This document shows positions 44,254-58,222 of a DNA stretch of 64,000 nt, one piece after another; the stretch's first letter is position 1, and each line of letters opens with the position of its first letter. The notes beneath the pieces are model-generated. The model saw only the letters and a list, made by a program, of their open reading frames with translations, was not told the DNA's origin and made no database searches. The translations under genes were made by a program, and so were the position numbers. Source of the DNA: Candidatus Cloacimonadota bacterium (GTDB taxonomy: Bacteria; Cloacimonadota; Cloacimonadia; Cloacimonadales; Cloacimonadaceae); assembly GCA_029781115.1 (NCBI GenBank), contig JAKOXG010000009.1, forward strand, positions 1-64,000, given 5' to 3'.

Positions 44254-44773
44254 TCTTCCACGAATTACACGAATTAACACGAATTATGGGATAAAGAAGT
44301 CCACGGATGAACACGGATGCTCACGGATGGGAACTATGTATGGTCGCTTGCCATAGCGACCTGTACGGGCGGTTGCCAAACCGCCGCCAGCAGGCGCCAG
44401 CCTGCTTCCCCAACCCAGCCCCATAAACACACCCGGCTACACCAAGAGCACCCGCATCTCCGAAATGGGCGTCAGCGACTGACTACTGATTACTGACGAC
44501 TGACTACTGCGGCGCAGCCGCCCCCATTCGTGGAAAAACAAAAAGCCCCAAAGCCCAACTGATCTTGGCCAAAAGCACGCGTATCCCCGAAACTTCGATC
44601 AAACTGCTCACCAAAAATGTATTTGAACCAGAAACTCGGGCTTTCGAGGAACTCTCCCTACTAACCTAAAAGAATCATTCGATGCACGGCAACATCAGGT
44701 CAAGGTGCTGGGCTAGATTTTACACACCCGGAACATCCGCAGAGAAGATCCCGGTTCTGGCTTCTTTAGCATT
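44254..44773. other. Non-coding repeat-rich region downstream of the DGR template
   Basis: No gene. In order: three CACGAATTA copies at about 44260-44287; three CACGGATG copies at about 44302-44329; a twin hairpin at 44342-44385; a 26-nt motif at 44442-44467 and again at 44569-44594; CGACTGACTACTG twice around 44474-44507. Nothing else is evident up to the template repeat. Confidence 0.7.
44342..44385. repeat. Twin-hairpin repeat, copy 2
   Basis: GGTCGCT/AGCGACC at 44342-44361 and GGCGGT/ACCGCC at 44368-44385, the reverse complement of copy 1 at 285-330, including the TGCC-type loops. Confidence 0.75.
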
Positions 44774-44884
44774 GCAGAGACGAAAACCGACATTGTTGTT
44801 GTTGCCTTTGTATGGATTGTTGTTGTTACGGTTAGCTACACGGCAGTTAGTTGCATTGTTGTTCCAGCTACCACCACGCAACAG
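44774..44884 (-). repeat. DGR template repeat (TR)
   Basis: 111 nt, read on the minus strand from CTGTTGCGTGGTGGT to CGTCTCTGC. It starts 20 nt after the reverse-transcriptase stop. In the target frame it has 37 codons, 13 of which are AAC or AAT; 35 of 111 bases are adenine. Its last 18 nt contain no adenine and are shared, A-to-N free, with the VRs of two targets: this is the expected priming (IMH) end. Beyond TGCA, TR reads AT-GCTAAAG while the VRs of genes 1 and 3 read GG-GCTATAAA. Confidence 0.96.
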
Positions 44885-44904: not shown

Positions 44905-45969
44905 TTAAGGTAAAACCATTTTCCATTTCCTCTTTTCATCCGAGAACTCAATGTCCTCAAATATGGTGTTTATCAGTTTCTTGGTATGACCAGCGGTGAG
45001 ATAACCAATATGCCCGTTGATGCTACGTAGAAGTTGGTTGAAATCTGTGACTTTCCTGCGGGATTTCAATTTACGCCGGAATCTGACCAGGTTTTGGGAG
45101 CGCAATTTTATCCTGTTTTCGTGCAGACGAAAGCCCAGAAAGTCAATACCTAAAGCGTTCTTTTTGATGTAGTTCTTCTTCTCGTTTGGGATCAGTCTGA
45201 TCTTGGCCAATTCCGACAAAATCTGGTTTACAGCCTTTTTGAGGCTATCCCGGCTATCGCCAAATACTATCACATCATCCATATACCTGATGTAGTAAGG
45301 GAAATGAAGTTGTTCTCTCACATAGTGGTCAAAATCATTCAGATAGAAATTGGCGAAGAGTTGGCTGGTCAGGTTTCCTATGGGTATACCTCGTGGTCTG
45401 ATCAGCTCGCAGACATCAGGCTCGCCCGCAGGGAAGTAATACTGAGCACCACTGTCGTAAGTGCCTAACAATTGATCCAGCAAAACCAGTAGCTTGCGGT
45501 CTTTGAACTTTCTCTCAAGCTTAGTCATCAGCATTTGGTGGTCAATAGTGTAAAAATACTTTTTGATGTCCAGCCGATAGTGATACTGAGAGTTTTGATA
45601 GAACCAGAAGGCTCTTCTGATTGCTTTGTGCAGACCCTTGTTTTTGCGGCAGGCATAGCTGTCTACGATCATGGACTTCTCCAAAACAGGCATAATCACA
45701 TTACAGATGGCGTGGTGCGTTACCCTGTCCCGGAAGGGAGAACAGGAGATGGTGCGCTGTTTGGGTTCAAAGATCTCGAAATGACGGTAAGCACCGAACC
45801 GATAAGCTTGTTCCCTCAACTGCTCTTGAATCTCCAGAAGGTTGCATTCCCAATTGTATTCAAACGCACTCAGATCAGCCGAAGTTTTGCCCCTTTTCGC
45901 ATTACGAAAGGCGCTTAACAGATTTTCCCAAGTGTAAATCTGCTCGTAGAGGTAGCCAAGCCTTTTCAT
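44905..45969 (-). CDS. DGR reverse transcriptase
   Basis: 354 residues. RT motif A is [12 protein letters not shown] (132-143), motif 4 [17 protein letters not shown] (194-210) with the [I]GxxxSQ form characteristic of DGR enzymes, and the active site YMDDVIVFG (229-237). It copies the template RNA while misincorporating opposite adenines, then the product replaces the target VR. ATG is directly adjacent to the Avd stop, and the TR lies just downstream, the usual avd-RT-TR order. There is no group II intron maturase or endonuclease domain. Confidence 0.96.
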
Positions 45970-46305
45970 TTATCTTTGCAGCGATTTCAGCCAGCCTCCC
46001 AGTTGCTTGCCGATGTTGTCAATCTGCTCAACAAAGGCATGGTGTTGTGCGGGTGAGATCAGTTTGAGCTCAAAAGTCAAACGCACCAGAAATCGCAAAA
46101 CATCCAGCTTGATGCTCGCCTGACTGAGCAACTGCGTAGACCCTGGCTGCGCTTTCTGACCGATTAGCAGCTCAAGAATATCGTAAAGCGTGTTTTCTAT
46201 CCGCAGCCCCAAAGCATAGCGATGGTTGCGCGGAAACTTGCTCAAGAGGTTGCCATACCACTTGAGCAAGTTGTAAGAATCGTTGATAATCTTGAGCTCT
46301 TTCAT
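45970..46305 (-). CDS. avd: DGR accessory protein Avd (four-helix bundle)
   Basis: 111 residues from the chosen ATG (MKELKIINDS). Family features are clear: YNLLKWYGNLLSKFPRNHRYALGLRIENTL and the terminal IGKQLGGWLKSLQR. Avd forms a basic pentameric barrel that binds RT and template RNA and is needed for mutagenic retrohoming. A longer frame to 46356 adds residues that lie in the conserved tail of the VR1 gene, so I reject it. The ribosome site is weak, so it may be translated by read-through from the upstream gene. Confidence 0.93.
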   Translation of the reverse strand: MKELKIINDSYNLLKWYGNLLSKFPRNHRYALGLRIENTLYDILELLIGQKAQPGSTQLLSQASIKLDVLRFLVRLTFELKLISPAQHHAFVEQIDNIGKQLGGWLKSLQR

Positions 46306-46368
46306 AATTTCGACCGGCTGCGCCGGAATTGCCAAAGGCCAAATACCAAGAACCAAGAACCAATCAAT

Positions 46369-48150
46369 TTATAGCCCTGCAGAGACGAAAACCGACATTG
46401 TGGAGGTGCCCTTGCAAGGATTGCTGACGTTACGGTAAGCTACACGGCAGTAAGACGCAGAGTTGATCCAGCCACCACCACGCAACAGTCGATATTGCCC
46501 TGTTTTAGGCCCGGTGGGATCATCCTTGGGACTGCTGCCGTAATAGGAACTGGAATACCAATCCCAGCACCATTCCCAGACGTTGCCGCTCATGTCGTAG
46601 ATGCCCAGTTCGTTGGCTGCCTTGGTTCCCACTACATGGTTCTTGCCGCCTGAATTTTCATCGTACCAAGCCACTGAGCCGATGTCATTGGAGCCGGAAT
46701 ACTCATATCCCTGGCTCTTCACTCCGCCCCGGGCGGCAAACTCCCACTCCGCTTCGGTGGGCAAACGGTAACCGTTGGCACTGAAATCGCATTTGACCGC
46801 ATCCCAGGTGGCATCGTTACTGTCTTTGGGAACAGCACCCCAATGGTTTGGATTGGTGCTGCCGCCAATCGAGTAACAAGGCGTGAGCCCTTCCGCCAGG
46901 CTGCGCAGGTTGCAGTATTTAATGGCAGCATACCAGGAGACATAATAGGCAGGATAGTTATCCCCTATGCCCCTGTTATCATTCCAGCTTAAACCCGGCT
47001 GCAGATACTGGGCAAACTCCGCCTGAGTGACCACGTACTTACCGAGATAGAAAGACTTAACCGATACCTGATGCTCCGGTATTTCGTCCGTGACGCCCTC
47101 ATTGGAGCCCATTTTGAAGCTGCCGCCCTCGACATAGACCATGTTTTCGGGCACCCAAGAGAAGTGCACCTTGCTCTGCTGATCTTTGCTCACATACAAG
47201 CTCTTGCTTTCTCTGCTGCCGGAGGCGCGAGCCTCTAAGGAATGGTTGCCCACGGTAACATCGCTGATCTTCATGCTGGCTGCAGGGGATACCTTGCCCG
47301 TGTAACTTCCGTCTACATACACATCCGCTTCCCGGGAAGAAGTGACAATTATCGTGCCATAGTGGTGCACAGTTTGCACCCTGGGTGCTTTGGTTTCGCT
47401 CGGCTTTGCCGTGGTCGGGACGTAATCTGTGGCCCGGGCGAAGCGGAATTCCACAGCCAGACTGCCCAAGGCCCAAGGTGTCTGTTTATCGGATGTTTTG
47501 TCTTTGACTTCGTTGATGACTTTCCTCATCATAAGTTCCACCGGCTCTGGCTCGCCCAGGTATTTTACAAAGCTCTCGGTAAAAGGACTGTTATTTCCTC
47601 TGCCATCAGCCGCTGTCTTGCCTTGTTCGGTGGCAAAGATGATGTATTGGCTGCCAGCCTTGCACTGCATGCTGGCCAAACCTTTACTGCCGCTTTTGAC
47701 ACCACGGAAAGGATTGTCCCGACAGGCATCCAACACCATCACGGAAACCCGGGCATGTTGCAGTTTATTCATAGCCAGGTTGCAGTTGAAGGCATAGTAT
47801 TGCAGGTCTTCCTCGTCATCAAACTCCCGACCCACAGGGATCAGATAGTTTATGCCATCCACATTGGCACCGTGACCGCTGTAATAAAACACTGCTTCAT
47901 CGCTGTCCGTCAATCCGGAGACAAAGTTTTTCAAAGCCCTGTCCATGGCTCTCTGATCAGCGTTGGTGACCTTGGTGACGTCGAAGCCCAGCTCTGTGAG
48001 CTTTCCGGAAACCAGGTTGGCGTCATTTACCGGATTACGTAAACGTGCACCCTCATAATCTGCATTGCCGATCACCAAAGCCTTACGGGTTCCCAGCAAC
48101 GGACATGCTGTTAGGGTCAGCAGTAGCAGCCCTAAAATGATCTTGTTCAT
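46369..48150 (-). CDS. DGR target 1: exported caspase-PEGA-FGE-like protein (3' frameshift)
   Basis: 593 residues from the ATG after CGAGG (MNKIILGLLL). Signal peptide with possible lipobox LTAC (Cys16). Caspase-like C14 domain with His93 (YYSGHGANVDG) and Cys143 (VLDACRDNPF). PEGA domain about 265-335 (TIIVTSSREADVYVDGSYTG), then an FGE-sulfatase domain from about 340 (NMVYVEGGSFKMGSN ... RLPTEAEWEFAARGG ... LGIYDMSGNVWEWCWDW). Its end is VR1. A 1-nt deletion near 46400 makes the protein end MSVFVSAGL; restoring the base gives NVGFRLCRAIN as in its paralogues. Confidence 0.93.
   Translation of the reverse strand: MNKIILGLLLLTLTACPLLGTRKALVIGNADYEGARLRNPVNDANLVSGKLTELGFDVTKVTNADQRAMDRALKNFVSGLTDSDEAVFYYSGHGANVDGINYLIPVGREFDDEEDLQYYAFNCNLAMNKLQHARVSVMVLDACRDNPFRGVKSGSKGLASMQCKAGSQYIIFATEQGKTAADGRGNNSPFTESFVKYLGEPEPVELMMRKVINEVKDKTSDKQTPWALGSLAVEFRFARATDYVPTTAKPSETKAPRVQTVHHYGTIIVTSSREADVYVDGSYTGKVSPAASMKISDVTVGNHSLEARASGSRESKSLYVSKDQQSKVHFSWVPENMVYVEGGSFKMGSNEGVTDEIPEHQVSVKSFYLGKYVVTQAEFAQYLQPGLSWNDNRGIGDNYPAYYVSWYAAIKYCNLRSLAEGLTPCYSIGGSTNPNHWGAVPKDSNDATWDAVKCDFSANGYRLPTEAEWEFAARGGVKSQGYEYSGSNDIGSVAWYDENSGGKNHVVGTKAANELGIYDMSGNVWEWCWDWYSSSYYGSSPKDDPTGPKTGQYRLLRGGGWINSASYCRVAYRNVSNPCKGTSTMSVFVSAGL
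46379..46488 (-). repeat. DGR variable repeat 1 (VR1)
   Basis: 110 nt aligned to the 111-nt TR with one gap. There are 17 substitutions, all at TR adenines (e.g. AAC to ATC, GTC and TCC; AAT to TCT), and one base missing in the 30th codon. No substitution falls at a non-adenine. Confidence 0.96.
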
Positions 48151-48209
48151 GTCAACCTCGTTATATGTTTTTTCCCTTCTTATATCTGAAGCTGTCAAAA
48201 GCCTTAAGC

Positions 48210-49709
48210 TCACTCAGCGACCAAAGCCTCCGCCCAGGTTTGGAGCCTGAACTCCAAGTCTTTACTGAAGCCCAGATGATCAAAGGCGACTTTGCCTTGT
48301 TTGTCTATCACGTAGATTTGTGGGATGGCTTCCCCGCCATATTGGCTGAACACCTCATCCGCTTCGAGTAGCAAGGTCATAGCATAGGATTTTTCATTCA
48401 TGTAGTCTATGGCATCCTGAGGGTCGTCTTCGTACACATTAACTGAAAACACCTTCACACCCTCAGGCATGGAGGTTTTTATCCAGTTATCAATCACGGG
48501 CATAACCCCGCGACAGGGGCCGCACCAGGTAGCCCAAAAGTCCAGGATCACCACTTGACCCCTCAGATCGGCCAGGCTGACCTTGTTACCTGCAGCGTCA
48601 TTCAGTTCCCAGTCCGGGGACGGCTTGTCCAATCGCTCTTTCAGCATTTTCTGACGGCGCAGGGAAGCATCAGCCTCCCAGTTTTGTTCTGCTGCAGCCA
48701 AGAGGGTATCCCAGCGTTTATCCTCATGCAGAACGGTCAACTCTTCATCATTCTGCAAATCCAGATAGTCCAGCACTCTGCCCTTCACAAGGCGTTGGAG
48801 CCGGTTCAGGGCATTATCAGCTTGATCAAGTTCAAGATAGGTGTAAACAAGCCGCATCTGCATTTCAGTCTTGTTTTGGTATTCAGGATGGGAGTTCAAA
48901 AAATTCTCCATCAGTGCTGTTTCCCCTAATTCTCCCAGACACGTGAGATAAAATCTATCGGAATGTTCAGCGTTGGTCTGTTCGTCTATCTCCTGTATTG
49001 CCTCCTTGGTTAACATACTGAAGGGAGTTATACAGCTCCAGTCGACTTGCAAACTACGCTGTAGGGATGCCAATAGTTCAGGCCGGTCCGCTTCCTTCAG
49101 GAAAGCCATAACATCCTGCCAATTGAACAACAAGACTTCGTCGTCCTTTACCTTCAGCAGGGATAACTCCGCATTTTTAAGATCGCCATCAAACCAGAAA
49201 CTGCGAAACTGGGCTAAATTGAGAATAGGGTCTGCAGGAAACTTCTGAAGTCCCTGCTTCAACAGCGCTTTATCCGCAGCGTAGTCTTTGGTGGTGTAGT
49301 CATCTGCCGTGTAAGCATTGCTTAGCAGGTAATACATGTTATCCGCCATAATCTGATAACCTCCAAAATAATCCGGGTGCTCGGCTATCATCTGACGGGC
49401 TGATTCAAGCCTCAGATCATCGTCTTCAATACGGAGGGCTAAGTATTGATATTTTGGATCATTGGGATGTTTCTCCAGAAGTTGCTCGTAATAATCGCAA
49501 CAAGCTTCAGGGTCAATCCTGAGCCAAATGTCCTGAAGAAACCGGTGATCCTCAGTTTCCTGGGCCCGGGGCAAGGCACTCTGAATACAAGCCGAAAGCT
49601 GCACTTTAGTTTCAGCCTTATTCAGCTCCGTGATTAAATCTTCATTGAAGCTTCCGCACAGCATAACTGCCGTGCAAAACAACAGCATAAGCAAAAGAGT
49701 CCTTTTCAT
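48210..49709 (-). CDS. Exported TlpA-like thioredoxin with long helical N-terminal region
   Basis: 499 residues from the ATG after GGGAGG. Signal peptide (KRTLLLMLLFCTAVMLC), about 320 residues of helical, TPR-like repeats (YLELDQADNALNRLQRLVKG), then a thioredoxin fold with redox motif FWATWCGPCRGV. It would work in the periplasm, reducing or forming disulfides; the VR-bearing domains nearby contain conserved cysteines. It is 59 nt upstream of the first DGR target, in the same direction. Confidence 0.82.
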   Translation of the reverse strand: MKRTLLLMLLFCTAVMLCGSFNEDLITELNKAETKVQLSACIQSALPRAQETEDHRFLQDIWLRIDPEACCDYYEQLLEKHPNDPKYQYLALRIEDDDLRLESARQMIAEHPDYFGGYQIMADNMYYLLSNAYTADDYTTKDYAADKALLKQGLQKFPADPILNLAQFRSFWFDGDLKNAELSLLKVKDDEVLLFNWQDVMAFLKEADRPELLASLQRSLQVDWSCITPFSMLTKEAIQEIDEQTNAEHSDRFYLTCLGELGETALMENFLNSHPEYQNKTEMQMRLVYTYLELDQADNALNRLQRLVKGRVLDYLDLQNDEELTVLHEDKRWDTLLAAAEQNWEADASLRRQKMLKERLDKPSPDWELNDAAGNKVSLADLRGQVVILDFWATWCGPCRGVMPVIDNWIKTSMPEGVKVFSVNVYEDDPQDAIDYMNEKSYAMTLLLEADEVFSQYGGEAIPQIYVIDKQGKVAFDHLGFSKDLEFRLQTWAEALVAE

Positions 49710-49878
49710 TGTTCCTCCCATATTATTTGGTTTTTTAGGACGTTCTCACTCAATCCTCTTTGAGTTTCAATGTTTTTTTAAACTCATCTCTAAGTCCTGT
49801 AACTTCATCTATAATCCTTGTGTGTGATTAAGCTGTCGGCTGCGCCAGAATTGCCAAAGGTTAAAAACCCAGAATCAA

Positions 49879-51663
49879 TCAATTTGCGGTCCTGCAGAGA
49901 CGAAGGCCGACATTGTCGTAGTTGCTCTTGTACGGAGGGTCGAAATTACGGTAAGCCACACGGCAGTAAGCTGCATTGAAGCTCCAGCTACCACCACGCA
50001 ACAGACGTTTTTGCCCTGTGTTAGGGCCGGTGGGATCATCCCTGGGGCTGTCGTTGTAATAAGAGCTGGAATACCAATCCCAGCACCACTCATTAACGTT
50101 ACCGCTTATGTCGTAGATACCCAGTTCGTTGGCGGCTTTGGTTCCTACAACATGGTTTTTGTCGCCTGAATTGTCTTTATACCAAGCCACGGAGCCGATG
50201 TCATTGGAGCCGGAATACTCATATCCGTGGCTCATTTTTCCGCCTTTGGCAGCAAACTCCCACTCCGCTTCGGTGGGCAATCGGTAACCGTTGGCACTGA
50301 AATCGCATTTGACAGCATCCCAGGTGGCATCGTTGTTTTCCTTGGGAATAACACCCCAATGACTTGGATTGGTGCTGCCGCCAATCGAATAACAGGGAGT
50401 AAGCCCCTCTGCCAAACTGCGCAAATTGCAGTATTTAATGGCGGCATACCAAGAAACAAAATAGGCAGGATAGTTATCCCCTACGCCCCAGTTATCATTC
50501 CAGTTTAAACCAGGCTGCAGATATTGGGCAAACTCCGCCTGAGTGACCACGTACTTACCGATATAGAAAGACTTAACCGTCACCTGATGCACCGGTTTTT
50601 CAGCGCTGTAACCGTCATTGGAGCCCATTTGGAAGCTGCCGCCTTCCACATACACCATGTTGTCAGGTATCCAAGAGTAGTGCACCGGGCTCTGCTGGCC
50701 TTTGCTCACATACAAGCTTTTGCTTTCACGGCTGCCTGAGGCGCGTGCTTCCAAGGTGTGATTGCCGACCATGACGTTGCTGATTTCCAGGCTGGCTGCG
50801 GGGGAAACCTTGTCCACGAAGTTCCCATCCAGATACACATCTGCCTCACGAGCAGAAGTAACAGTTATCGAGCCATAGTGGTGCACCTTTTGCACCTGGG
50901 GTGCCTTGGTTTCGCTCGGCTGGACCGTAGTCGGGACCTGATCCGTGGCTCGGGCGAAGCGGAATTCCACAGCCAGGCTGCCCAAGGCCCAAGGTATCTG
51001 CTTGTCAGATGTTTTGCCCTTGACTTCAGCTATGACTTTCCTCATCATATCTTCCACCTTGAGGGGCTCGCCCAGGTATTTTACAAAGCTCTCAGTGAAA
51101 GGGCTGTTTTTGCCGCTACCGTCTGAGGCAGTCTTGCCTTGTTCGGTGGCAAAGATGATGTATTGGCTGCCAGCCTTGCACTGCATGCTGGCCAAGCCTT
51201 TGCTGCCGCTTCTAACCCCACGGAAAGGATTATCACGGCAAGCATCCAATACCATCACGGAAACCTTGGCGCGTTGCAGTTTATCCATAGCCAGATTGCA
51301 GTTGAAGGCGTTGTAAGGAAGGTCTTCCTCGTCATAAATCTCCCGGCCCACGGGAATGAGATAGTTTATGCCATCCACGTTGGCGCCGTGACCACTATAA
51401 TAGAACACAGCCTCATCGCTGTCTGTCAATCCTGAGGCGAAGCTGCCCAAAGCCTTGTCCATGCTTTTCTGGTTGGCATTGGTGATCTTGGTGACGTCGA
51501 AGCCCAGTTCTGTGAGCTTGGCGGAAACCAAGTTGGCGTCATTGACTGGATTGCGTAAAGGTGCATCGGTATAGTTGGCATTACCGATCACCAAAGCCTT
51601 ACGCGCAGCGAAGCCCGCAAAGGTCAAGCAGAGCAAGAGGACTACGATTAGGTGTTTCTTCAT
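49879..51663 (-). CDS. DGR target 2: exported caspase-PEGA-FGE-like protein
   Basis: 594 residues. Signal peptide MKKHLIVVLLLCLTFAGFAA. C14 caspase domain with His92 (YYSGHGANVDG) and Cys142 (VLDACRDNPF), PEGA about 265-335 (SITVTSAREADVYLDGNF), and FGE-like domain from about 340 ending in VR2 (NVGLRLCRTAN). It is about 80 percent alike to target 1 by eye. The 5' leader contains a structured 67-nt element at 51701-51767. A protease head plus a diversified binding tail suggests ligand-triggered proteolysis outside the cytoplasm; this is inference. Confidence 0.93.
   Translation of the reverse strand: MKKHLIVVLLLCLTFAGFAARKALVIGNANYTDAPLRNPVNDANLVSAKLTELGFDVTKITNANQKSMDKALGSFASGLTDSDEAVFYYSGHGANVDGINYLIPVGREIYDEEDLPYNAFNCNLAMDKLQRAKVSVMVLDACRDNPFRGVRSGSKGLASMQCKAGSQYIIFATEQGKTASDGSGKNSPFTESFVKYLGEPLKVEDMMRKVIAEVKGKTSDKQIPWALGSLAVEFRFARATDQVPTTVQPSETKAPQVQKVHHYGSITVTSAREADVYLDGNFVDKVSPAASLEISNVMVGNHTLEARASGSRESKSLYVSKGQQSPVHYSWIPDNMVYVEGGSFQMGSNDGYSAEKPVHQVTVKSFYIGKYVVTQAEFAQYLQPGLNWNDNWGVGDNYPAYFVSWYAAIKYCNLRSLAEGLTPCYSIGGSTNPSHWGVIPKENNDATWDAVKCDFSANGYRLPTEAEWEFAAKGGKMSHGYEYSGSNDIGSVAWYKDNSGDKNHVVGTKAANELGIYDISGNVNEWCWDWYSSSYYNDSPRDDPTGPNTGQKRLLRGGSWSFNAAYCRVAYRNFDPPYKSNYDNVGLRLCRTAN
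49894..50004 (-). repeat. DGR variable repeat 2 (VR2)
   Basis: 111 nt. Twenty differences from TR: 16 at adenines and 4 elsewhere (one C-to-T, one G-to-A, two T-to-C, the last two in the otherwise adenine-free IMH end). It is the most diverged of the three variable repeats. Confidence 0.94.
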
Positions 51664-55205: not shown

Positions 55206-56786
55206 TCATTTTATAGCCCTGCAGAGACGAAAACCGACATCGTTGCTGTTGCCCCTGTATGGATAGCTGAGGCTACGGTAAGCTACACGGCAGTTAGTCG
55301 CATAGTTGTGCCAGCTACCACCACGCAACAGCCGAGATGAGCCAGTTTTGGGCCCTGTGGGATTATCCTGTGGGCTGCTGCTGTAGTAAGAGCTGGAATA
55401 CCAATCCCAACACCATTCCCTGACGTTGCCGCTCATGTCGTAGATGCCCAGTTCGTTGGCTGCTTTTGTACCTACATCATGGGTCTTGTTGCCGGAATTG
55501 TCTGCATACCAGGCTACGGAGCCAAGATTGTTGGAGCCGGAATAATCATAGCCGATACTCCTGACTCCTCCCCGGGCAGCGAATTCCCATTCCGCCTCGG
55601 TGGGCAATCGGTAACCGTTGGCACCAAAATCGCAGACGACAGCGTCCCAAGTGCTGTTTCTGTCTTCAGTAGGAACAGCCCCCCAATTGCCAGGCCTGGT
55701 GATACCGCTGATCGAATAGCAGGGAGTAAGCCCCTCTGCCAAACTGCGCAGATTGCAGTATTTGATGGCGGCATACCAGCTCACCTGTTCCACCGGCAAT
55801 TTATCCCCTTTCCAATATGAGGGATTGGAGCCCATCACTTCTTTCCATTCCGCCTGCGTGACCTCGTTTTTGCCGATCCAGAAAGATGAAACCGTTACCT
55901 TATGCACCGGTGTTTCGTCATCATCATAGCCATTTGAGCCCATCATGAAGCTGCCTCCTTCGACATAGACCATGCCCGGCGGTGTTGAAATCTGCGGAGC
56001 AGGCGGCGGAGTGTAAACCGGCTTGCTGGATGTTGTGGACAGAGGCACAGAGTCATCCACCCGAGCCAGGTAGTAGGGCTGATCCATGCTGTGATAGGTG
56101 AAGGGAATCTGTTTCCCATCCGTACATTGACGCACATCGGCATTGACCATGTGCATCATTTGATCAATGGTCAGTCCGGGCGTGCCGGCATGGCGCACAA
56201 AGGCATCGGTAAAGGGGCTCAGTCCGGCGGAGCCTCCATCTGCAGCAGTCTGCCCGCTGGCGGTGCTGTAGATGATGTATTGTCTACCCTTATCCAAGGA
56301 CATTACGGCTAAGCCCTTATTGCTGCCTCCCTTCACGCCGCGGAAAGGATTGTCCCTACAAGCGTCCAATACCACGATTGACACTCCCGCATTGGAAAGC
56401 TTCCCCGTGGCCTTGTTAGCATTCACAGCATCGAACTTGATGTCCTTCTCGTCCTTCATCACCTTGCCCACGGGGATGAGGTAATTCTCGCCTTCCACCT
56501 GGGCTCCGTGACCGCTGTAATAGAAGATTGCCTCATCTTCAGGCTTTAGAGAGGCGGTAAAACTGTCTATGCTCTCTTCCAGGTCGCGCCTGTTCTGGTT
56601 GATGCGCAGGGTGGTGGCAAATCCCAGCTCTTTTAGCAGCTTTTCCACCGCCCGGGCATCGTTCACCGGGTTGCTCAGAGCTGCAACATCGTAATCGGCG
56701 TTACCGATCACCAAAGCTTTGCGGGCGGCTGGGAGACTGATGCAGCCCATGAGCAACATCAGAATAAGTATCCATTTGTTAGACAT
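55206..56786 (-). CDS. DGR target 3: exported caspase-FGE-like protein
   Basis: 526 residues, without PEGA. Signal peptide with possible lipobox LLMGC (Cys15). C14 caspase domain with His93 (YYSGHGAQVEG) and Cys143 (VLDACRDNPF). A short proline linker (PVYTPPPAPQISTPPG) joins the FGE-like domain (GMVYVEGGSFMMGSNGYDDD ... GIYDMSGNVREWCWDWYSSS), ending in VR3 (NDVGFRLCRAIK). It is the most distant target, 10.3 kb from the TR. Confidence 0.94.
   Translation of the reverse strand: MSNKWILILMLLMGCISLPAARKALVIGNADYDVAALSNPVNDARAVEKLLKELGFATTLRINQNRRDLEESIDSFTASLKPEDEAIFYYSGHGAQVEGENYLIPVGKVMKDEKDIKFDAVNANKATGKLSNAGVSIVVLDACRDNPFRGVKGGSNKGLAVMSLDKGRQYIIYSTASGQTAADGGSAGLSPFTDAFVRHAGTPGLTIDQMMHMVNADVRQCTDGKQIPFTYHSMDQPYYLARVDDSVPLSTTSSKPVYTPPPAPQISTPPGMVYVEGGSFMMGSNGYDDDETPVHKVTVSSFWIGKNEVTQAEWKEVMGSNPSYWKGDKLPVEQVSWYAAIKYCNLRSLAEGLTPCYSISGITRPGNWGAVPTEDRNSTWDAVVCDFGANGYRLPTEAEWEFAARGGVRSIGYDYSGSNNLGSVAWYADNSGNKTHDVGTKAANELGIYDMSGNVREWCWDWYSSSYYSSSPQDNPTGPKTGSSRLLRGGSWHNYATNCRVAYRSLSYPYRGNSNDVGFRLCRAIK
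55221..55331 (-). repeat. DGR variable repeat 3 (VR3)
   Basis: 111 nt with 13 differences from TR, every one at a TR adenine (AAC to CAC, TAC, AGC and CTC; AAT to TAT and GAT; AAA to AGG; GCA to GCG). The last 18 nt match TR exactly, as expected for the IMH end. Confidence 0.97.
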
Positions 56787-56815: not shown

Positions 56816-58222
56816 TCACGGCTTCTCGGGCTCCCCTTTTGCGCTTTGGGCAAAGTCATGATAAGCTTTTGAGTCTTTTATCTGAGAAAGTTGTGTGTGG
56901 AAACCGTCTATGATGCTGCAGAGCAGGCGGTTGACATACATTCTATCCACTTTCATCACGACTTGCTCACTCGCAGAAGTTCCTTTCGTTTCAGTGCTGG
57001 GTGCTTCAACCTCATAAAATAGCTTGAATAAAGCCCTAACAGGTTTCATATTTACTACCGTTTTCACGCGTTGTGCACTCTGCTCCTCTGCAACGCCTGA
57101 GTCTTGTATAAAGTCTTTTCTTGCCGATTGAAACTGCAGGTCCAGGCTGTCCCGCATTGCTGCCAAGACGAAATGCGCCAGGTCGGATCGGGTGGATTCT
57201 TCGGTGTTCTTACTGGGAAGCCAAGCGCGGATCAAGGAATCCGCATCCGCCAAGATGTATTTCCTTAAAGCACTCTCTGTTTCATGCCATCTTAATTCAG
57301 CCCACTCATTATAATCATACTCCTCAAGGACGGCTCCCTCAAAAAAGAACTGATAGTTAGCAGAATCTGCCGTAATCAGGCATGACTCCTTGTTCATCGG
57401 GGGTATGGTTGTCCTTGGTTTTGGGCTTTTTCCCTGAGCAGGGGAGAAGTAGAATTCATCGACCAAACTGCCAATGGCACACGGTGTTTGCTTAGAGTTG
57501 GTCCTGGATTCCACGTCTCGGATGACCAGTCTTGCCATATTCTCGATGACGAGTGGCTGGTCGAGGTATTTCACGAAGCTCTCGGTGAAGGGGCTGTTGC
57601 TGCCTTTACCGTCGGATGTGGTCTTGCCATACTCTGTGGAGAAGATGACGTATTGGTTACCAGCCTTGGCCTTTATATTGATCATGCTGCTGAGACCGGA
57701 GCTCTTTTTGCTGTAGGGGTTGTCGCGACAGGCATCCAGCACCATCACCGAGACACGAGCCCGCTGCAATAGTTCCAGCACTCGGTTGGTGTCGAGGGCA
57801 TTATGGCGCAGATCATCCACGTTATTGATCAACTTATCTACAGGTGTCAGATAGCTTATGCCGTCCACAGCAGCCCCGCCACCGCTGTAAAAGAACACGG
57901 CCTCATCGCGGCTCGTCAGTAGGTCTGCAAAGCTCTTCAAAGCTTTGTCCATGGTACTTTGGTTAGCGTTGGTGACTTTGGTGACCTCGAAGCCCAGTTG
58001 CGTGAGCTTGTCCGCAACCAAGTTGGCATCGTTGACCGGATTCCTCAGAGGGTTATATGCATAATCAGCGTTGCCGATCACTAAAGCTTTGCGTACGGCT
58101 TGGAGCGGGATGGACAGGCATACCATCATCAAGAGTAGGATGCTGGCAATTGCCTTCATGCTATAGCAGCCCTGCTTCAATGATGGTGCTTGTGAAGTAT
58201 CCAGCGTCTTTTTACTTTTCAT
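56816..58222 (-). CDS. Exported caspase-like protein, catalytic His replaced by Gly
   Basis: 468 residues. I use the ATG after AGGAG; an internal ATG at 58159 gives a more normal signal peptide (SILLLMMVCLSIPLQA). The C14 domain matches the DGR targets (VRKALVIGNADYAYNPLRNP), but the motif is FYSGGGAAVDG, with Gly115 in the place of His; Cys164 (VLDACRDNPY) remains. The C-terminal 200 residues are helical and unlike the FGE domain. It is probably catalytically dead, a decoy, scaffold or regulator. It overlaps the upstream gene by 11 nt. Confidence 0.85.
   Translation of the reverse strand: MKSKKTLDTSQAPSLKQGCYSMKAIASILLLMMVCLSIPLQAVRKALVIGNADYAYNPLRNPVNDANLVADKLTQLGFEVTKVTNANQSTMDKALKSFADLLTSRDEAVFFYSGGGAAVDGISYLTPVDKLINNVDDLRHNALDTNRVLELLQRARVSVMVLDACRDNPYSKKSSGLSSMINIKAKAGNQYVIFSTEYGKTTSDGKGSNSPFTESFVKYLDQPLVIENMARLVIRDVESRTNSKQTPCAIGSLVDEFYFSPAQGKSPKPRTTIPPMNKESCLITADSANYQFFFEGAVLEEYDYNEWAELRWHETESALRKYILADADSLIRAWLPSKNTEESTRSDLAHFVLAAMRDSLDLQFQSARKDFIQDSGVAEEQSAQRVKTVVNMKPVRALFKLFYEVEAPSTETKGTSASEQVVMKVDRMYVNRLLCSIIDGFHTQLSQIKDSKAYHDFAQSAKGEPEKP

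Follow-up and report, generated by a model that had tools for sequence, protein, structure and literature searches.

The question raised by this locus is how far the placement of adenines in a short template dictates which residues of its target proteins are free to vary. The segment at 44774-44884 of the window (the whole stretch of DNA that was analysed, 64,000 nucleotides) is the template repeat (TR) of a complete diversity-generating retroelement (DGR) in a Cloacimonadota genome, a new member locus of a known kind, and the original prediction held that its codons are arranged so that only surface positions can change. The underlying design principle (AAY codons, no stops, surface variability) is already known and is stated almost identically in the literature: the avoidance of stops by AAY codons has been published (PMC6328139 and PMC12875486, citing earlier work), as has the tendency of variable residues to cluster at the binding surface (PMC12875486, PMC4891356). 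The DGR lies on the minus strand in the order target 3, target 2, thioredoxin-like gene, target 1, Avd, RT and TR, with the following features:

55206..56786, minus strand: target gene 3, caspase-like and FGE domains (FGE match; PDB matches to TvpA, FGE and the MALT1 paracaspase domain)
55221..55331, minus strand: variable repeat (VR) VR55, 13 substitutions relative to the TR, 13/13 at TR adenines (p = 5e-8)
49879..51663, minus strand: target gene 2, caspase and FGE domains (PF00656, PF03781)
49894..50004, minus strand: VR49, 16 substitutions at TR adenines and 4 others
48210-49721, minus strand: thioredoxin-like gene, between target genes 1 and 2
46369..48213, minus strand: target gene 1, caspase and FGE domains (PF00656, PF03781), C-terminus frameshifted
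46379..46488, minus strand: VR46, 17 substitutions, 17/17 at TR adenines (p = 1e-10), and a 1-nt deletion
45970..46356, minus strand: Avd accessory protein, 128 aa (PF22296 bAvd; NCBIfam NF033474 DivGenRetAVD, 96 bits against a cut-off of 80)
44905..45969, minus strand: DGR reverse transcriptase (RT), 354 aa (PF00078, E = 7e-22; IGNLTSQ and YMDD motifs)
44774..44884, minus strand: TR, 111-nt core, 37 codons in the VR frame (A-specific mismatches against VR55, VR49, VR46 and a fourth VR, on contig C13)
44774..44791, minus strand: adenine-free 3' end of the TR, GTCGGTTTTCGTCTCTGC, encoding VGFRLC, in an IMH-like position and the same in VR55 and VR46
44768..44773, minus strand: 3' boundary of the TR, AATGCT (AGGGCT in VR55 and VR46, AGGACC in VR49), a predicted IMH*/IMH-like switch from boundary comparison

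The RT, the only one found in a genome-wide search, carries both the DGR motif [I/V/L]GxxxSQ and the YxDD active site, and is 94% identical to the RT of the nearest named relative, UBA3900; identity as a group II intron RT/maturase was rejected (TIGR04416, 138 bits against a cut-off of 300). Elsewhere in the genome the TR matches the three VRs of the window and one at C13:44114-44224, which has 6 non-A mismatches; a further VR, at C13:41817, is decayed, with 22 mismatches at adenines and 12 at other bases. Every one of these VRs belongs to a gene with a caspase domain, an FGE (TvpA-like) domain or both. All 30 of the 30 mismatches in VR55 and VR46 fall at TR adenines. The TR/VR relation, its A-specificity and its frame are established, as are an intact RT and an intact Avd. 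We hold with high confidence that the segment is a DGR TR and that adenine placement in the VR frame sets which residues vary. As taken over from the BPP-1 literature, the RT, together with Avd, would copy the TR RNA with errors in which template adenines can be read as any base, and the resulting cDNA would take the place of the homologous VR at the 3' end of each target gene, the adenine positions in the VR frame thereby determining the residues that vary. The AAY codons, which can yield as many as 15 residues but no stop, would then stand at change-tolerant surface positions of a TvpA-like FGE/C-type-lectin domain, and the core motifs RGG, C, R and GFRLC would be left without a mutable adenine.

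Read as the reverse complement of 44774-44884 in the VR frame, the TR (111 nt) bears out much of what had been predicted from its letters: there are 13 AAC/AAT codons among the 37 (10 AAC and 3 AAT), three codons with adenine only at a silent third position (GCA, GTA and CCA), and no adenine in the final 18 nt (44791-44774). Adenines number 16, 15 and 4 at codon positions 1, 2 and 3, respectively. The adenine-free scaffold codons exist as a class, although there are 17 rather than 16 (CGT at codon 19 had been missed). Four further codons with replacement-capable adenines had been left out of the prediction (AGC at codon 6, ACT at 12, TAC at 25 and AAA at 26), each of them altered in at least one VR, and the residue-changing codons are 17 of 37 rather than 13 (codons 6, 8-10, 12-13, 18, 20-23, 25-26 and 28-31). 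Freedom from stops holds for the AAY codons but not for AAA at codon 26, which can give TAA, TAG or TGA. The equation of adenine-free codons with scaffold is likewise right only in part: R3, G4, G5, R19, G33, F34 and R35 are encoded without adenine and do not vary in paralogues, but codons 2, 15, 17, 27 and 32, which also lack adenine, vary there to about the same degree as the mutable codons, indicating that 'A-free' does not mean 'buried scaffold'.

The VR sits at the 3' end of the target, and the FGE domain, correspondingly C-terminal, is predicted to adopt a TvpA-like C-type-lectin fold. In the model of this domain from 55206-56786 (pLDDT 96) the fold is that of TvpA (2Y3C), the nearest solved structure both by sequence (E = 9e-55) and by fold (TM 0.91, rmsd 1.9 A), and 12 of the 17 mutable residues are assigned to loops (DSSP of the model). 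Variability was evaluated independently of the DGR in 11 FGE paralogues, these being the FGE proteins of the same genome that the TR does not match; entropy among them reaches 2.60 bits at mutable codons, against 1.12 bits at the others (p = 1.3e-5), supporting the conclusion that TR adenines sit where the fold tolerates variation. That 'only surface positions' can change is overstated: surface exposure of the mutable residues is suggested by homology to TvpA together with published mapping, in which the variable residues of TvpA and other DGR proteins are exposed (PMC4891356, PMC6328139). The genome has 16 FGE genes, of which six, unmatched by the TR, are clustered at positions 62529-68636 of contig C10 (G000:C10) and vary at the same C-terminal positions; these are possibly former DGR targets.

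We compared the TR with a set of 52 non-redundant TRs, found by scanning near related RTs; most of the top 25 Cloacimonadota RT loci carry a recognisably similar TR. Richness in AAY codons and avoidance of stops are general across these 52 DGRs, the mean probability of producing no stop being 0.95 for the reading frame used, 0.48 and 0.50 for the two alternatives, and 0.90 for synonymous shuffles. AAC is favoured over AAT, although both yield the same residues. Comparison of close TR pairs (21 independent) provides a direct test of whether adenine placement is kept by selection on a template that is untranslated as target protein. Between such pairs adenines differ in 6.4% of comparisons and other bases in 12.7%, and differences are most frequent at codon position 3 (177, versus 59 and 34; p = 7e-29). 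Because the TR does not itself encode any part of a target protein, this frame-dependent conservation most likely arises through its role as template. A general loss of adenines from the TR by its own mutagenesis is disfavoured, given that adenine is the most conserved base; such self-mutagenic loss may apply to silent adenines.

These comparisons bear on the alternative that ordinary codon usage in an Asn-rich copy of an FGE C-terminus accounts for the pattern, its adenines being unselected. In the single TR the avoidance of adenine in scaffold codons is indeed within chance (3 silent fourfold adenines, versus 2.2 expected from synonymous shuffles), and the adenine-free choice of scaffold codons exceeds chance only across the 52 TRs. 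Ordinary usage is hard to reconcile, however, with the enrichment of Asn over paralogues (13/37 in the TR versus 23/460 in the matching segment of 12 FGE paralogues of the genome; odds ratio 10, p = 1.8e-7), with the rarity of AGR arginine codons (13 versus 87 expected in the 52 TRs), or with the close pairs, in which AAY adenines differ in 1.7% of cases and bases other than A at the first two codon positions in 6.8%. The AAY adenines, about four times better conserved than other bases at these positions, are thus held by selection, and we regard the codon-usage explanation as extremely improbable. A second alternative, that the element is a relic in which template and targets have ceased exchanging sequence, draws on the frameshift associated with VR46 and on the non-A mismatches noted above for VR49 and the two VRs on C13. 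It has to contend with the intact RT and Avd, and with VR55 and VR46, which are free of non-A substitutions even though the TR has altered since this lineage and the sister species separated, indicating that both were rewritten from the present TR; we consider it unlikely.

Three of the four non-A mismatches of VR49 match the TR of the sister species UBA3900 (locus L025; p = 6e-4), two of these sites being shared by the VR at C13:44114. The last rewriting of VR49 therefore probably used an earlier TR, in which codon 27 was AGC. In the present TR codon 27 is GGC (AGC to GGC, the mutable adenine having been lost), and Gly is found there in VR55 and VR46. The 1-nt deletion in VR46 lies near 46407 within an AAC run (codon 28) and shifts the frame of the C-terminus of 46369-48213, which ends in MSVFVSAGL instead of NVGFRLCRA. 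Indels within the repeat occur in 3 of 94 TR/VR pairs, all in AAC-rich runs (-1 here, +1 at locus L083 and +3 at L135). The deletion fits template slippage as discussed in PMC12875486, and may instead be an assembly error. As read from their sequences, then, the frameshifted target and the non-A mismatches of VR49 and the C13 VR indicate that not every target has been rewritten recently.

Protection of the protein does not appear to be the whole cause of the adenine layout. In the 52 TRs adenine occupies 62/1011 (6.1%) of fourfold silent third positions, compared with 28% in the upstream part of the same genes; T shows no depletion (27.9% versus 25.4%), C and G rise, and the depletion is seen in 49 of 52 loci. 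Across these TRs silent adenine is low in every quarter of the repeat (4-11%), and its turnover between close TR pairs is 61%, compared with 25-34% for other bases. Adenines are avoided about fivefold even where the protein is unaffected, a depletion that protection of the protein cannot account for and that may reflect a template-level cost of adenines or mutation. A related observation, that variable adenines lie almost only at codon positions 1 and 2 in one organism, has been explained by maximal diversity (PMC10907252); we found no published report of silent-adenine depletion in TRs in the literature searched, and to our knowledge the effect is new. It could inform on the cost of template adenines. 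We can envisage, though we would put it at somewhat short of an even chance, that the layout is partly shaped by such a cost (RT speed or fidelity, cDNA-VR homology, or mutational adenine loss) rather than by protein protection alone, adenines perhaps surviving only where diversity pays. The extent of the depletion, its agreement among loci and quarters and the high turnover all favour this reading; it is weakened by the present TR, an exception with 3/16 silent fourfold adenines and hence undepleted, by a third-position adenine content of about 13% in paralogue segments, and by a smaller effect in the FGE-like subset (24 versus 47), and mutation bias or expression-related codon choice may also underlie the depletion. 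Only tentatively, then, do we suggest that DGR templates face a pressure against adenine itself, even at silent sites, the adenine map being a compromise between diversity and template cost and not purely a shield for the protein.

Directly after the adenine-free 3' end, a change from A(A/G)T in the TR to AGG in the VR recurs in most Cloacimonadota pairs (loci L025 and L134-L157). No BPP-1-type hairpin that folds better than shuffles was found just 3' of the three VRs (z = -0.45, 0.14 and 1.44). A hairpin downstream of the VR is of BPP-1 type and is not universal in DGRs, and Avd is present in many of them. The BPP-1 Mtd DGR (PMC12875486, PMC3240598) resembles the present one in its RT, Avd and TR, in adenine mutagenesis, in an AAC-rich TR and in an adenine-free 3' end adjoining an IMH/IMH* difference, putative here, and its literature already makes the argument from stop avoidance and surface placement; the present element differs in residing on a bacterial chromosome rather than in a phage, as well as in the hairpin.

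The closest counterpart of the variable domain is in the TvpA DGR of Treponema denticola (2Y3C; PMC4891356), which has an FGE-type C-type-lectin domain with a C-terminal VR, in which Asn codons and a Lys codon are targeted and the variable residues have been mapped to the outer surface, an exposure that homology would extend to the residues here. In contrast to TvpA, the FGE domain here is fused to a caspase domain, and several targets precede the RT, Avd and TR, with one or two more on another contig. The DGRs of multicellular bacteria (Thiohalocapsa PB-PSB1, PMC10907252) likewise have several targets, including remote ones, confine variable adenines almost entirely to codon positions 1 and 2, and have peptidase-linked putative sensors with FGE domains; the present locus differs in the direct fusion of caspase to FGE in the targets, in a single RT for all of them, and in its phylum. 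It adds a Cloacimonadota DGR that diversifies caspase-FGE proteins, putatively sensors that are secreted or anchored in the membrane and that carry a caspase-like protease domain. Adjoining the targets, at 56816-58222 on the minus strand, is a caspase-domain gene that has no FGE domain and that gives a weak match of the EACC1-associated type.
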